From Chrysochromulina parva (taxonomy: Eukaryota; Haptophyta; Prymnesiales; Chrysochromulinaceae): 28,954 nt of DNA. The stretch is taken from NCBI GenBank assembly GCA_002887195.1, contig PJAB01000355.1:1-28954 (forward strand). The letters run 5' to 3'. Under the pieces are notes generated by a model. The model was not told where the DNA came from and made no database searches. It saw nothing but the letters and a program-made list of their open reading frames with translations. Below are positions 2,459-27,307 of this stretch, piece after piece; the first letter of the stretch is position 1; each line of letters begins with the position of its first letter. The translations under genes and the position numbers were made by a program.

Positions 2459-2940
2459 GGTGCTGATCGGCATGCCACCGGCAAGGCCGCTGGCGCCGGA
2501 CGGCCGGCACGCTCAGAGGATGAGCGCGCGGCGACTGGCGCGATACATGTAGGGATCTGCCACGTGTGCAGAAAGATATGATGCCGGGTGGCGTGCGGGA
2601 CAGTGGCATGTTGCGTGCGACGGTTGCAGGGATGGGGGCGTGGGAGAGGCTGGCGTGTGATGGAGGGGTGCGGGGGGCGCGTGAGTCCCCCGCAGACAGG
2701 ATGTGAGCTCAGGATCTACAATGGGCCGTGCTGTGAGCTCACATAGTGCTGCGTGGCTGAGATGGCGGCCATTGGCCTCGCGCACACGTACTACGGTCTA
2801 CGCCACACGTTTAGCAACTTCAGTAAGGAATGTCAGGAGCTCAGAACGCTATAGCCTAGGTACTAGCGACCCCAGCGGGACCGGACGGAGGTGACCTCTT
2901 GTACGGGTTGTAGACGGCCTGTTCCGAAAATTCAAATCGA

Positions 2941-3060
2941 CAAATGCGCGCGCGTGGGCCGTTAGTCTTACCGCTCCTACTACGTACTGCCCCTCTCTTA
3001 CAAATGCGCGCGCGTGGGCCGTTAGTCTTACCGCTCCTACTACGTACTGCCCCTCTCTTA
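2941..3060. repeat. Exact 60-bp tandem duplication
   Basis: Bases 2941-3000 and 3001-3060 are identical over all 60 positions, starting caaatgcgcgcgcgtggg. Exact identity in non-coding DNA implies a very recent event, or a collapsed or expanded assembly artefact. Confidence 0.95.
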
Positions 3061-3595: not shown

Positions 3596-5995
3596 TCACG
3601 GCGCGTACACGCCCACGAGCTCGGCCTGGAAATCGTCGAGCATGCGGACGTTGTGCACCGTCTCGTACATCTCGGTGCCATCAGTGCCTCCGAGCTTGAG
3701 GATCGACTCGGGCCCCGCCGGATGCTCATCAAGGAAGGCAGTGAAGTCGTACACCTTGCCGTGCAGCGCCACCCAGCAGCTCTGCCAGCTGTTGTGCGCT
3801 GCCAGCTCCTCGGCGCTCACGGTACGAAGCGCGGCGGCGGCGGCGCTGGCGTCCGCGCCCTCGGCGGCCACACCCCCAGCAGCCGGCAGCGGCGCGGCCG
3901 CGGCGGCGGCGGCCGGCAGGCCGGCAGCGAGTGTGGGCGGTGCCTCGAGAGAGGCGATGGGTAGGCGCTCCCCCACGATGGACCCAAAGACCGTGCACTC
4001 GAGCAGAGAATTGCCGCCCAGCCGATTGTTGCCATGCACGCCTCCGGTCACCTCTCCAGCGGCCGAGAGCCCCTCTATGACAGACCCATCCTCCCGGAGC
4101 ACCCGCCCCCCCTCGTCCATTCGGATCCCCCCCATTGTGTAGTGGAGTACCGGTACAATCCGGCCGGCGTACAGCGTCGCCTCCGGCTCGAAGTCGCCAT
4201 GACGAAAATCCTTTTTGCCAAAGGTGTCGTGGCCCGCCTCGGCTGCGGCCGCGTACGCCTCGAGCGTCGCCCGCAGCCGCGCCGCCAGCGCCGCCACGCC
4301 CGCGCCGCCCGCACCGTCGGTGCAGTTGGCATTCGCCTGCGCGGCGCCGGCGACGCCATCCGGCGAGAGCATCCATTGGGCGAGCCCGTCCACGCTCGCG
4401 ACTTTGACGAGCAGTCCTTTCTTGACGTAGAGCTCGACGTGTCGGCCTGCCTCGGTGGCCATGGGCTGGTTGAGGACGAGTACAAACTCGGAGGCACCGG
4501 TAGCGATCTGGCCGTCGACGACCTTATCTCGCGGCGCGAGCTCGTTGACGAAGCGCTCGCCCGCTGGGGTGAGGAGGATGCCCCCCACGCCGCGCATCAT
4601 CTCGCCACAGAGCACCTTTGTCGAGGCAGTGGGGTGCGCGGGGTCGACGAACCCCGTCGGATGGATCTGGACGCGATCCATATCGACAGAGCCGGCCCCG
4701 ATGGCCATCGCCATCTTCATCCCATCGCCCGTCGCCCACTCGCCGTTGGTCGTTGGGTACACGAGGAGATCCGGCCGATGCCGAGCGAGCAGCGACGTGT
4801 TCGTGCGGTCGTTGGCAAAGCCACCCGTTGCAAGGACCGTCTGTGCGGCGCGAAGCTCGACCACGGCGCCCGTGGCCACTTCCACATAACGTACGCCCAC
4901 CACGCGCGCCGCCGGCACGGCACCCGCGGCCGGCGCGCTGCCGTCGCCTTCGGCCGAGGCGCTCAGCTGCCCATCGGCGCCCTCGAGAAGGAAGCCGGTC
5001 ATGCGGCAGCCCGTGCGCAAAGAGAGCTGCCCCGTCTTGACGTACGCTTTGAGCTCCTTTTGGAGGGCGAAGGTGAGCTCGGCTCCGACCATCCCGTTCG
5101 CGGGCCGGTGCGTGCGCGCGTGCGCGTGCCCGCCGAGCTGGGACACCATCGAGAGATCAATCGAGGTGCGCTTGAGCAGCCAGCCGATGGCTGCGGAGGA
5201 GTGCTGCACGAGCACGGAGATGAGCCCAGATCGAGCGAGATGGCTCGCCGACTTGGCCGTGTCTGCCGCGAAGGCGTCGACGGTGTCGTTGGTGTTCTCC
5301 TTGGAGCGACTGTGCGGCGGGCAGCATGCATTGATCCCCGAGGACGCCTTGGCGCTATTCCCGCCCAGCTGCCTCTCCTTCTCGAGCACCACCACCTTGG
5401 CCCCACGATCGAGCAGCCGCAGGGCGGCGGTCATGCCCGCCACCCCTGTACCGACGACCACCGCGTCCGGGATCTCCCCTGGCTGGACACCCGGCCGCAT
5501 CGCCATGGGACCGCCCGCCGCGGCGGCTGCGGCGGCGGGAGCGGCGGCGGCGCGCGGCGAGAGGTAATCGGCAAGGAGGGTCGAGCGCACATGGGTGGCA
5601 AATGAAGGGAAGGATCCCAAATGCTTGGCGGCCAGTAAGAGACGTGCGTCCGGCCGAAGCGCCAGCGAGACCGCGGCAACCTCCTCCGCGCGGGTCAGCT
5701 CTCCCGCAGCAGTGGCGCGTGCGAGCGCCGCGAGCGCCGTGTCAAGCAGGCTCACATAGCCCGGGCCGCCGTAGGCCACTTCCAGAGCCGATCGATCAGA
5801 GGCGGCGGCGATGGCGATGGACGCGGCGGCGGAGGCGGCGGCGGCGGCTGCGGCTGCGGCTGCGGCGGCGGCGGCGGCTGGCGGCGTAACGGCAGCTGCC
5901 CCAGGGTACGTGAGGGTTCGCTGCTGCAGCGACGCGCCCGTGACGGCCGCGGCGGCGGTGGCGGCCTTGGCGGTGGCGGTGGCGGTGGCGGTGGC

Positions 5996-6027
<32 letters not shown>

Positions 6028-7604
6028 GCCCATCGGCGGCATAATACCGAGCGTATCTGAGCTCCGTGAGCTCCTTGACGTGGGTGATGGCCGAGGAGAA
6101 CTTATGGAGCGTGTTGAAGAGGGCGGCGACCTCGTCTCGTGAGACCGATGTGGGAAAGAGCTCGGGAGGGAGCAGCAGCAGCTTGAGCGCGGTGCCATAG
6201 CCGAGCATCGTCACCTTGGCGTGTAGTCGGCACTTTTGGCACGAGACGCAGTCGATGACGCGGCTCACGTTGTGGAAGACCCCCTTGAATTGCTTCTTGA
6301 GGCTCCACCAGCTCGCCTGTGGGGAAGAGGCGAGGGCGCCGTGGTGAGCCCTTGCATGCAGGGAGGGCTCCACCAGCTCGCCTGTGGGGAAACGCGCTCG
6401 GATGGCCCCATGGGATGGCCGTTCGGGGTAATGTTCGGGGTAATCGGGGGCGTCCGAGGGGGCGATCCGAGGCCGAGGTGGCACTCGAAGACGGCAATCT
6501 CGCGGCAATCTCGCGGTAATCTCGCGGCAATCTCACCTGCTCCTCGCGGAATAGAAGTCCCTCGTCGAAGGCCTCAAAGACCGCCGAGCACGACTTGAGG
6601 ATCGCCGTGTCGAGGAAGCGGCGCACGAGCGCAGTCGCGTCCATCATGCCGCCCACCTCTTTCAAGCTGCCCCGCTCCGCCGCCGCCGCCGCCGCCATGG
6701 CCGAGGGCATCAAGTTGTAATCGTACGTCGACAGGAAGGGCGAGGCGCGTCGCACCGCCCGAAGCAGCACGACGAAGGCGAAGTGAAGGTTCTTGAGGCG
6801 CTCGGGGTGGCCATCGAATTGGCGCGCAAAGTACGCGAGATCGGGCTCCCAGTCCGTCCGGTTCTTGCGCTTCGAGGGCGGGTGGTAGAAGCGCGCCACG
6901 TGTGTGTTGGTCGCCGCATGCATGCCCGAGAGTAGCCGGTAGAGCACGCGCTCCTCGAGGCAGATGTTCTGGTCGGAGCCGGTGCGCACGAGGCAGTTCT
7001 CGTTGTAGATGGCCGCCCACACGTGCGAGCCGTTGTACCCCGTGTAGCTCTCCTCATTCAGCTGAAGGTTGACATAGTCGGAGGCATTCGTCGGGATCGC
7101 CGAGCACATGTCGAGCCAGAACGACGGCAGCGTCTCGTCGTTGCAGTCCTCGGCGATGGTGCCCACATACGCGTGCTCCTCGGGCGTGATGGTCACGTCC
7201 ACCGGGTCCGTGGGTACGCTCGACTGCTCGCGCGGCGGCGACATGGAGCTCGAGAACGGGCTGCCGCCGCCGCCCATCGCCGCAGCGCCAAACGGGTCGG
7301 ACGCCGAGTTGTCGGTGCCGAGCGTGCAGAGCGGCTCGGCAGTGTCCTCAGCCTTGCTCACGCACACGTGCTCCTCCTCCTCGGGCCCGCCCCAGTACTG
7401 GCACTTGCCATCCATGTTGACGTTGATCAGCCGAAAGAAGGGCGCCGTGCTGAGCTCGGCGAGCAGCGTGTGAAGCTGGTGCTCATTGGCGGCCTCGACG
7501 GTCTCGAGGTTACACTGCGTGTCGGCTAGCGGCCCGGAGGGCAGCACGTCGAAGGGCGAGAACGGCGACGCGGCGAGCACCAGCGCTGCGAAGGCGGCGA
7601 GCAT
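3596..7604 (-). CDS. ERO1: ERO1 - fumarate reductase - cytochrome b5 fusion protein
   Basis: Two exons, 7604-6537 and 6316-3596, join in phase 0 across a GT-AG intron and give 1262 residues. The ATG at 7604 opens a clean signal peptide; the frame upstream starts only at GTG. Residues 30 to about 450 are ERO1: CQYW (C68), the FAD-contact motif SGMHAATNTH (226-235) and the active-site triad C379-VS-C382-QK-C385. An Ala/Thr linker and an unrecognised helical stretch (about 450-635) follow. Residues 640 to about 1145 are a soluble fumarate reductase: GTGVAG (645-650), HPTG (H908), E928/R931, R952 in LAPRDK (equivalent to the catalytic acid), HYTMGG (H1081) and NNRLGGN (R1121). About 1188-1262 is cytochrome b5 with heme ligands H1221 and H1244. 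N-glycosylation sequons support a lumenal location. Known ERO1 oxidises PDI; coupling to fumarate is inference. No stop or GT-AG break separates the domains. The ERO1 CX4C shuttle motif is not seen intact (C81 and C93 are 11 residues apart). Confidence 0.85.
6300..6391 (-). repeat. Introner-like repeat covering the ERO1 3' splice site, two copies
   Basis: The 27-bp block at 6300-6326, which spans the intron end and the first codons of exon 2, is repeated inside the intron at 6365-6391. Read on the minus strand, the interval is nearly identical to the PPR-gene intron repeat at 25280-25367: about 7 differences in about 80 bases by hand, sharing gcatgcaag, ctcaccacggcgccctcgcc and cttccccaca. 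The whole intron is 6317-6536. Its 5' part carries a separate short repeat of gcgagattgcc. Confidence 0.85.
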
Positions 7605-23979: not shown

Positions 23980-26900
23980 ATGAAAGCGAGGCGACAGACC
24001 TCCGCCCAGGACGCGCAGCGCGACGCCCTGAAGCGCATCCTCTTGTGCAAGAAGGAGAGGAAGTGGCAGGACGCCATCTCCATCCTCTCAAAAGCACGAA
24101 TGGAAGGTGCCCCGCTCTCGACTGTCTCGTACAATGCGGCCATTGATTGCTGCAGCAAGTCCAAGCAAGTCCGGGTGGCGCTCGAGCTCTTCGACGAGCT
24201 CGTGTGCGTGGGCAACTTCCCGGATGCGGTCACCTATACCACGCTCATCGACGCATGCGGCCGCGCGGGCCACCTAGACCAGGCATTCGCCCTCTTTAGC
24301 CGGTGAGCCCATGCCCGTCTCTGAATCGGTCGAGAACCTCCGCGCCCCTCTGGCGCCGAACCGCGGCCGGCCGCGCCGCGCAAGGGTCGTGGAGGGCCGA
24401 GCTGGGCTCTGCGGCGCGCCCGAACGCCCCGCGCGCCCTCGTCGCCCGTCGCCTCCGCAGCGGCGTGGTTGCCGGCGCCTCATGATGGTGGTGGTGCTGC
24501 TGCTCATGACTGCGCTGCGCCCTCGAGTGTTCCTCCACGTGGCCGCAGCATGCAACTGGCCAACGTGGCGCCCAACCTGATCACGTACAACGCGCTCATC
24601 CATGCGTGCGCGACGGTGGGCGCCACGGACGCGGCGTTCCAGGTGCGTTGTGCCCTCGACCCTGTGGAACCGCCCCCCCCCGTCCCCCCTCCGCCCCCTA
24701 TGGACCCGTCCCCCCGTCCCCCCCCGTCCCCCCTCGCCCCCTGTGCCGCCCCCTCGCCTGCCTATGACCGGAACACAAGGACCGTGCGCTCTCTCTGTCT
24801 GTGTGCGTAGGTGTGGCATCAGTTGCGCACATCGGGGCTGACCCAGCCGAACGTGCGCACGTTCACAGAGCTCATCAGCGCTTGCTGCAAGACCCAGGTG
24901 TGAAGACCCTGGCGCGCGTCCCTCGAACCTCCTATGGACTTCGCCTTGCATGCAAGTGCTCAACACGGCGCCCTCTCCTCTTCCCCACAGGCGCTCGACC
25001 TCGCCTTTGACCTTCTGTACCAGATGCTCCGAGAGCAGGTGGGCCCCTTGACTTGACTTGACTTGACGTGACTTGACTTGACTTGACGTGACTTGACTTG
25101 ACTTGACTTGACTTGACTTGAGATGCTCCGAGAGCAGGTGGGCCCCTTGAATTGAATTGACGTGACTTGACGTGACTTGACTTGACGTGACTTGACTTGA
25201 CGTGACGTGACTTGACTTGACTTGAGATGCTCCGAGAGCAGGTGGGGCCCTCCCAGCATGCACGTGCTCACCACGGCGCTACCCGTCCCCACACGCGAGC
25301 CGGTGGAGCCCTCCAAGCATGCAAGTGCTCACCACGGCGCCCTCGCCTCTTCCCCACACGCGAGCAGGTGGAGCCCTCCCGCGTGACGTATGACATCCTT
25401 CTGCGCGCCGCGTGGGCGATGAGCGCCACGTCGAGATTTCTCGAGCTCAAGGAGCTCATCGCCCAGGTGAGGGCTGCTGATGAGCCCTGATGATGAGCCC
25501 TGATGATGAGCCCTGATGAGCCCTGATGAGCCCTGATGGCTGATGACGGCTGATGATGGCTGATGATGGCTGATGATGACCTCTCTGATGACCTCTCTGA
25601 TGACCTCTCTGATGACCTCCCTGATGACCTCTGATTGCGCGCAGAGCCATGTGGACCTCTCCGGCGCGACGATCAGCCTCATTAACGAATTCCCTGATGA
25701 CCTCTGATTGCGCGCAGAGCCATGTGGACCTCTCCGGCGCGACGATCAGCCTCATTAACGAATTCGACCTAGCGATGAACCGCGGGGCCTACCGCGCGGA
25801 CCTGGGCAAGTCGGCGCCCGTCCGGCTGCTCGCCGAGAGGGCTCAGGCCGCGCCCGACACGGCGCCCGAAACGGTCCTCGAGGCGGCGGAGATCGAAGAT
25901 TCGGCGAGATTGCATCTGGAGGGGTTGCATCTGGCGGCGGCAGATGAAGAGGAGGCGAGATTGCATCTGGAAGGGTTGCATCTGGCGGCGGCAGATGAAG
26001 AGGAGGCGGAAGTGGATGGGAAACCACCTCTGTCTGATCTGGCGACGGAGAGGGGGGGGGACACGGAGAGGGGGGGGGACACGGAGAGGGGGGGGGACAC
26101 TCCTTCATCGAGCTCTACCTCATACCCCACGAGCGCCATGTCGAGCGCCATGTCGAGCGCCATGTCGAGCGCGTCGCCGACGGCCGAGGAAGCGTCGAGC
26201 GCCGTGACGGGCGCGACCAAGTTGACACCCCAGCTGGGCATGACGAGGGCCGCGGCGGCCAGACAGAATGCGCTCACCGCAACTTTAGCAGCGCTCCCAG
26301 TGCTGTCAGAGCCCGATACAGCGCTCCCAGTGCTGTCAGAGCCCGATACGGCGCCCCAAGTGCTGTCAGAGCCCGCGTCAGAGGCGGAGGATGCTTCCAC
26401 AGCGACGTTCACAGCGACGTTCACAGCGACGGATGAACGTTCACAGGCGAGGATGGCCTCCCAAATTAGGATGGCCTCCGGATTGAAACGACTGAGCGCC
26501 ATGTTGAGCGCCAATCCCCAAGGGGCACGGCCGCCGCCGTCGCCGTCGCCGCCGTCGCCCCCGCCGCCCCCGCCGCCCCCGCCGCCGCCGCCGCCGCCGC
26601 CGCCGCTCATACCCACCCCACCCCGAGGGACCCACCATTCCAATGCCAACCCCTACAGCTGGTTTGGGATGGCCCCGTCGCCGACCTCGCCCTCCGCGCC
26701 GACCATGGCCAACACGGCGCCATTCATGCCCAATACGGCGCCATTCGTGCCCAACACGGCGTTCATGCCGCCGCAGATGCAGTACCAGCACATGCGCTTC
26801 GAACCCTTCCACATGGGTGGCGCCGTCGCGGGCGGTGCCGCCGTGATGGGCGGGGACAGTGCTGGCGCCGTGATGGGCGGCGGCTCGATCGGCAGCCTGC

Positions 26901-27307
26901 ACGTGCACGGCGCCCACTACGGCGCCCAGCACGACGCCATGACGCCCACCGTGGCGCCCTACCCCCTCGACGCTTTCGGATATGCCCCGTACGGACCGAT
27001 TGGAGCGCTCCCGATGCAACTGGTGCTGGTGCACCAGCAGCAGTACCAGCAGCAGTACCAGCAGCAGTACCAGCAGCAGTACCAGCAAGAGTACCAGCAA
27101 GAGTACCAGCAAGAGTACCAGCAAGAGTACCAGCAGCAGCAGCCGCAGTACCTGCAGCAGTACCACCAGTTCCAGCAGGAGCACCAGCAGCAGCAGCTCC
27201 AGCAGCAGCCCCAGCAGCAGCCCCATCCCGGGAGGGTCTCCCAGCAGCCAGGCCAAACGCCGTACCAGCCCATGCTCATGCCATTCCAAGTCTTCTCCTA
27301 CTCGTAA
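23980..27307 (+). CDS. Pentatricopeptide repeat protein with Q/Y-rich low-complexity tail
   Basis: Six exons: 23980-24302, 24549-24642, 24811-24897, 24991-25038, 25368-25466 and 25718-27307. They give 746 residues (806 if the in-frame ATG at 23800 is used). Every junction keeps frame and restores PPR helices: FSR-MQLANVAPNLITYNALIHAC, DAAFQ-VWHQLRTSG, CCKTQ-ALDLAFDLLYQMLREQ-VEPSRVTYDILL. About five PPR motifs fill residues 30-220. PPR proteins bind organelle RNA base by base. The last exon is unusual: tandem peptides (RLHLEGLHLAAADEEEA twice, TERGGD three times, MSSA, LPVLSEPDTA), a poly-Pro run, then QQQY/QQEY repeats. Introns 3 and 4 carry introner-like repeats, and intron 5 has a duplicated 3' splice site. 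The organelle is undecided because the 5' end is uncertain. Confidence 0.85.
24943..24990 (+). repeat. Introner-like repeat, 3' end of PPR intron 3
   Basis: From ttgcatgcaagtgctca to the splice acceptor cttccccacag the sequence matches the repeat in PPR intron 4 and, on the other strand, in the ERO1 intron, with only scattered differences. The copy ends exactly at the splice site (exon 4 starts at 24991). Confidence 0.85.
25022..25249 (+). repeat. Three copies of an exon 4 end/donor separated by cttga satellites
   Basis: The block agatgctccgagagcaggtg, which spans the end of exon 4 and its 5' splice site, occurs at 25022, 25121 and 25225. The gaps are filled with cttga/cgtga pentamers (about 25048-25120 and 25149-25224). 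Each copy ends in cag|gt and could act as a donor. The unit length is about 100 bp. Confidence 0.92.
25250..25367 (+). repeat. Introner-like repeat, tandem copies ending at PPR exon 5
   Basis: Two consecutive copies (about 25253-25311 and 25312-25367) contain agcatgca(a/c)gtgctcac, cacggcgc and ccccacacgcgag. The second ends in gcgagcag at the acceptor of exon 5. The copies match the minus-strand ERO1 intron repeat. Confidence 0.88.
25618..25763 (+). repeat. Exact 73-bp tandem duplication over the 3' splice site of PPR exon 6
   Basis: Bases 25618-25690 and 25691-25763 are identical. Each copy contains cctctgattgcgcgcag, an acceptor, and then the exon start encoding S-H-V-D-L-S-G. Since 73 is not a multiple of 3, only the downstream acceptor (exon from 25718) keeps frame with exon 5; use of the upstream one would shift the frame. 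Upstream, 25470-25640 is made of gatgagccct and tgatgacctctc tandem units. Confidence 0.95.
25904..26005 (+). repeat. 51-bp in-frame tandem repeat in the PPR last exon
   Basis: Two copies (25904-25954 and 25955-26005) encode ARLHLEGLHLAAADEEE with one or two base differences. They are followed by a triplicated cggagagggggggggaca unit (26046-26100). Confidence 0.9.
27034..27142 (+). repeat. CAG/TAC codon repeat array encoding QQQY and QQEY units
   Basis: Twelve-base units cagcagtaccag, then cagcaagagtac, are repeated about eight times in frame and give a Gln/Tyr-rich, prion-like stretch near the C-terminus. A looser CAG-rich segment continues to about 27225. Confidence 0.92.

Follow-up and report, generated by a model that had tools for sequence, protein, structure and literature searches.

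In the window, a 28,954-nucleotide stretch of the haptophyte alga Chrysochromulina parva (contig PJAB01000355.1, positions 1 to 28,954), we identified a minus-strand gene (7604–3596) whose 1262-residue product joins an ERO1 domain, a soluble fumarate reductase (FRD) domain and a cytochrome b5 domain in one chain; ERO1 is likewise followed by FRD in 107 relatives. We propose, with a probability of about 0.6, that this protein is a one-chain dithiol:fumarate oxidoreductase of the secretory pathway, acting in the lumen of the endoplasmic reticulum (ER).

The gene consists of two exons and one intron (Table 1). Pfam models matched all three parts of the window protein above their curated cut-offs, with 259.1 bits for ERO1 (PF04137; cut-off 27), 219.9 bits for FAD_binding_2 at residues 640–1127 (cut-off 20.4) and 62.3 bits for Cyt-b5 (cut-off 23.7), while the FRD also scored 323.5 bits with the flavocytochrome c model TIGR01813 (cut-off 285.45); the ERO1 and soluble fumarate reductase domains were each recognised as having their fold. 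The acceptor lies in a 26-mer of which the intron holds a second, identical copy 65 nt upstream, and only the acceptor at 6317 preserves the frame, giving 1262 residues, compared to 394 with the alternative. In the model of Chrysochromulina tobinii (P0111), whose ERO1 part is 95% identical to the window protein, the exons are joined at the same site, and the reading frame stays open throughout the GCN-repeat linker. A preliminary description of this DNA had read a single spliced ERO1–fumarate reductase–cytochrome b5 frame here, which the gene structure and Pfam domains bear out; every residue that it named was found, namely H908, R931, R952, H1081 and R1121, the CVSCQKC motif (from residue 379) and both heme histidines of b5, H1221 and H1244. 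The signal peptide that it had included stands as a hydrophobic N-terminus, with hydropathy as the support for its identity.

A search with the whole window protein returned 110 matches. Its candidates had to be 0.55–1.75 times as long as the query, which favours long proteins, and to rank among the 7,989 that had the most words in common with it. In 107 of the 110, family profile models placed ERO1 first, then a conserved linker segment and then FRD; 91 of the 107 also have cytochrome b5. Since 89 of these proteins had gone into building the models, the models depend on them; the precomputed Pfam annotation, which is independent, picked out the same 107 (ERO1 with FAD_binding_2) and the same 91 (b5). 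The remaining three matches were two ERO1 proteins and one b5 protein. Carriers of the fusion include haptophytes, among them Emiliania huxleyi (P0079, a 735-residue model holding only the start of FRD), diatoms (Bacillariaceae and Nitzschia), the cryptophyte Guillardia theta, a chlorarachniophyte (taxid 91329) and Mesvir1, a Mesostigma code that would denote a streptophyte alga. At least five relatives (P0008, P0031, P0045, P0071 and P0076; none from the species of the window) derive, in whole or in part, from MMETSP transcript assemblies, and joined mRNAs therefore exist in other algae. In 92 four-domain proteins, ERO1 and FRD distances were correlated (r 0.914, reached in 0 of 2000 permutations). 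Since 107 other proteins share the domain order, a local assembly accident is strongly disfavoured, and a one-off event or local assembly error at the fusion is very unlikely; the look into related algae that the preliminary description had recommended was thus strongly positive.

Table 1. Features of the fusion gene; coordinates are those of the window.
Feature	Position	Strand	Remarks
Exon 1	6537..7604	-	ATG at 7604; 356 codons; aa 1-356; hydrophobic N-terminus and most of ERO1
Intron	6317..6536	-	220 nt, GT-AG, GTGAGA...CCCCACAG
Exon 2	3596..6316	-	aa 357-1262: ERO1 end, linker, fumarate reductase, cytochrome b5, TGA stop
N-terminal hydrophobic region (probably a signal peptide), ~aa 1-16	7557..7604	-	hydropathy only
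ERO1 domain, aa 43-435, split by intron	6080..7478	-	Pfam
Outer (shuttle) cysteine pair C81-x11-C93, replacing CX4C	7326..7364	-	alignment
Inner ERO1 active site C379-V-S-C382-Q-K-C385	6230..6250	-	sequence
Ala-rich linker, GCN repeats	5801..6027	-	repeat scan
Linker segment of ~60 aa, conserved and helical, aa 544-603, without Pfam match	5576..5755	-	family profile
Soluble fumarate reductase (FRD) domain, aa 640-1127	4004..5467	-	holds H908, R931, R952, H1081, R1121
Cytochrome b5 domain, aa 1191-1248	3641..3814	-	holds H1221, H1244

We examined the conservation of catalytic positions in an alignment of 108 rows (the window protein and its 107 relatives), scoring gaps and truncated ends as missing data. 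The inner CxxCxxC (C379, C382 and C385) was kept in all 108 rows. At the positions that we take to be the ERO1 flavin adenine dinucleotide (FAD) site, T188, W196 and S226 were kept wherever a residue is aligned (107/107 rows), and H229 and R282 in 108 of 108. Conservation was also high in the reductase (H908 in 102/102 rows with a residue, R931 in 100/100, R952 in 97/97, H1081 in 95/97 and R1121 in 92/92), which retains each of the five catalytic positions when aligned to Osm1 and flavocytochrome c3 (Fcc3), and at the b5 heme histidines (H1221 in 92/94 and H1244 in 93/93).

The outer cysteines, which in canonical ERO1 receive electrons from PDI, form a CX4C motif that is considered defining. 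Six canonical ERO1 rows in our alignment show this motif, and it was seen in the outer-pair region of none of the 108 fusion rows, a few of which are truncated there. In the 97 rows in which three loop cysteines are aligned, the outer pair reads CX(10-46)C with a median of 15 intervening residues, and the loop from C68 to C93 has a mean of 23% acidic residues. Because the outer pair and the preceding cysteine share columns between fusion and canonical ERO1s (alignment A4, in a gappy region where the result depends on the aligner), the outer pair seems to have been kept within an enlarged loop. Since none of the 108 shows CX4C there, we assign the fusion ERO1s, by sequence, to a distinct ERO1 subclass. 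A further mark of the family is the segment between ERO1 and FRD (residues 544–603), predicted to be helical in structure models of relatives; in a wider match set, 16 relatives, some of them short fragments, carry ERO1 and this segment without FRD.

How electrons might enter the reductase is suggested by its flavin pocket, compared after two proteins (P0225 and P0226) had been excluded by hand. The residues lining the second-FAD pocket of Osm1 (W295, F297 and F362) correspond to T922, V924 and L985 in the window protein, such that the aromatic pocket is absent. The F362 position is F in only 1 of 97 fusions but is kept in heme-free FRDs; W295 does not discriminate by itself, as the 22 heme-free FRDs likewise have a residue other than W at that position. 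Because the fusions have lost this aromatic of the free-flavin pocket, electrons probably enter FRD through the b5 heme or ERO1 and not through free flavin. Regarding location, a hydrophobic N-terminus was found in the window protein and in 60 of the 79 rows that start with Met, and sequons are common to 92/92 rows at N372 and to 89/92 at N191; a secretory location is likely.

According to the model that we propose, the outer cysteine pair would oxidise the dithiols of a PDI-like partner, from which electrons would move to the inner CxxCxxC and on to the ERO1 FAD. Intramolecular transfer, probably via the b5 heme, would then carry them to the FAD of the reductase, where fumarate would take them up, making the route independent of oxygen. 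The preliminary reading of a fumarate-respiring disulfide machine is supported in part, with ER location, use under hypoxia and avoidance of H2O2 among its putative elements.

Several observations weigh against this proposal. With CX4C altered, PDI is perhaps not the partner, and at one presumed FAD-site position, where 88 of 107 rows have Arg, the window protein has Ser. No KDEL-like C-terminus was present in the 92 rows checked. Cytochrome b5 is missing in 16 of the 107 relatives, 15 of which are shorter than 1,050 residues, and F362 is kept in only 4 of 47 rows classed as stand-alone FRD–b5, showing that its loss tracks b5 and not ERO1. The loop is likewise enlarged in two proteins of Pavlovales, P0127 (Diacronema lutheri) and P0131, which end just past the linker segment and lack FRD. 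The fused FRDs do not form one clade (a single clade was rejected, p 0.00197), and fused and free forms intermingle in the FRD trees. Finally, the genome assembly, surveyed for ERO1 loci across 45 Mb and 2,199 contigs, holds at least three further loci with a canonical shuttle: CELDRC (C819), CDLERC (C1200) and CALRDC (C209). Because these other CX4C loci exist, the cell has thiol oxidases besides the fusion, which would add to the oxygen route and need not replace it.

The strongest competing explanation, which we nonetheless regard as improbable, is that the fusion serves co-localisation only: ERO1 would use O2 (or make H2O2), while FRD–b5 would draw on another donor and manage ER fumarate/succinate or flavin balance, the joined chain fixing stoichiometry and place. 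FRD–b5 proteins with their own N-termini, mostly from diatoms where named, are frequent among the matches, and must have another donor because they lack ERO1; the retention of ERO1 and linker without FRD in Pavlovales likewise favours this explanation. It is at odds with the conserved joined order and the correlated ERO1 and FRD distances, and we know of no luminal b5 donor besides ERO1. Somewhat less probable still is a thiol:enoate oxidoreductase, in which the reductase domain would act on another enoate (urocanate-like, a small lipid or a secondary metabolite); the five retained catalytic positions speak against it, as does the position of H908, which we take to differ in UrdA. That two proteins are made in practice, with FRD–b5 freed by translation from an internal Met627/Met629 or by proteolytic cleavage of the Ala-rich linker, has in-frame Met codons immediately ahead of FRD and a long, low-complexity linker in its favour, yet appears very improbable given the joined transcript-derived proteins of other algae and the conserved linker segment.

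We also considered trees of both enzymes. The ERO1 tree comprised 83 rows, including 35 of the 108 fusions, with the near-copies P0111–P0116 and ERO1 matches of up to 330 residues omitted; a branch with an SH-aLRT (Shimodaira–Hasegawa-like approximate likelihood ratio test) value of 91 separates the 76 rows without CX4C from the 7 canonical rows, whose small number (2 from the window genome) weakens the root. A further 12 canonical ERO1s (P0210, P0212, P0214–P0216 and P0218–P0224) lie outside this tree. The diverged ERO1s on C819 and C1200 (L002 and L003), which have no fused domains, pair with each other, set apart from the other ERO1s by a very long branch. The FRD trees are unrooted, with a sample skewed to diatoms and some 'free' rows that are fusion fragments; their mixing of forms would fit either an early fusion with later duplication and loss or repeated fusion. 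The Pavlovales proteins, of which P0131 has a transcript source, suggest that FRD was lost or separated in that group, though their ERO1–linker form may instead represent the ancestral, pre-fusion state. A broader version of our proposal, for which we judge the odds slightly below even, is that an old eukaryotic ERO1 class with a split shuttle and a private linker segment is wired through b5 to fumarate, and would perform anaerobic disulfide respiration in the ER of many algae beside the oxygen-using ERO1.

The gene and its surroundings also showed features of their own. In exon 1, a 60-nt GT-AG stretch (6667–6726, minus strand) is open and coding here, and P0111 skips these 20 residues; it may be an optional intron or reflect an error in that model. 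The intron contains one copy of a genome-wide repeat (6317–6385, minus strand), ending at the 3' splice site, and further copies lie in the window at 24948–24971, 25256–25279 and 25317–25340 (plus strand). The core of the repeat, GCATGCAAGNGCTCACCACGGCGC, has 434 exact copies in the genome (231+203; none for the reversed control), of which 282 (146+136; control 0) have CCACAG 5–25 nt downstream. At two of six loci fetched (L024 and L028), the repeat copy lies clearly between duplicated flanks with GT upstream, and in the canonical ERO1 gene on C209 (1786–1827, plus strand) the same repeat with CCACAG stands between two matched ERO1 stretches. By sequence, the repeat looks like an introner family that creates introns in this haptophyte. 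Downstream of the fusion gene, a 60-bp unit is perfectly duplicated in tandem at 2940–3060 (100% matches), and a perfect 73-bp tandem duplication (25618–25765) spans the start of a long stop-to-stop frame (25628–27307).

Among the closest systems known is that of yeast, where Ero1p and Osm1, an ER fumarate reductase, are separate proteins that bind weakly, with a Kd of about 150–200 uM according to PMC6242907; the link to this pair drawn in the preliminary description stands. While human Ero1-alpha and yeast Ero1p have a CX4C shuttle, the fusion has CX(10-46)C together with the linker segment, FRD and b5, and unlike Osm1, which is heme-free with a free-flavin pocket, the window protein lacks the aromatics of that pocket. 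Shewanella Fcc3 has an N-terminal four-heme domain, as described in the same source, whereas the fusion has one C-terminal b5 and an N-terminal ERO1. Stand-alone eukaryotic FRD–cytochrome b5 proteins (diatoms, fungi) share the FRD–b5 module of the fusion and are mixed with fused FRDs in trees but have neither ERO1 nor the linker segment. Searches of the open-licence PMC literature (subscription papers and preprints lie outside it) turned up the yeast study and PMC9516139, plant work that cites it; no title or abstract opening among the matches describes an ERO1–fumarate reductase fusion. The C. tobin genome (59 Mb, 3,472 contigs) was reported in PMC4580454, whose main text, as far as available, has no word starting with ero1, fumarate or oxidoreductin. 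The preliminary claim that no protein with this order had been described agrees with this literature; however, the architecture extends well beyond this alga, and deposited names mention the fusion, P0111 as 'ero1-like protein precursor fumarate reductase, partial' and P0101 as 'Endoplasmic Reticulum Oxidoreductin 1 (ERO1)/FAD binding domain'. The fusion combines two known enzymes in a widely distributed form whose ERO1 shuttle is altered and in which a heme relay is probable.

Which acceptor takes ERO1 electrons without oxygen is an open question, to which the yeast Ero1–Osm1 answer comes largely from weak binding and in vitro assays. A natural covalent fusion argues that coupling between Ero1 and fumarate reductase is real, offers a single protein in which to test it, and points to a relay through heme, for which the yeast system has no counterpart. 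If our proposal is correct, an ER route to fumarate would avoid H2O2, and these algae could fold secreted proteins with fumarate, instead of oxygen, as the electron acceptor.
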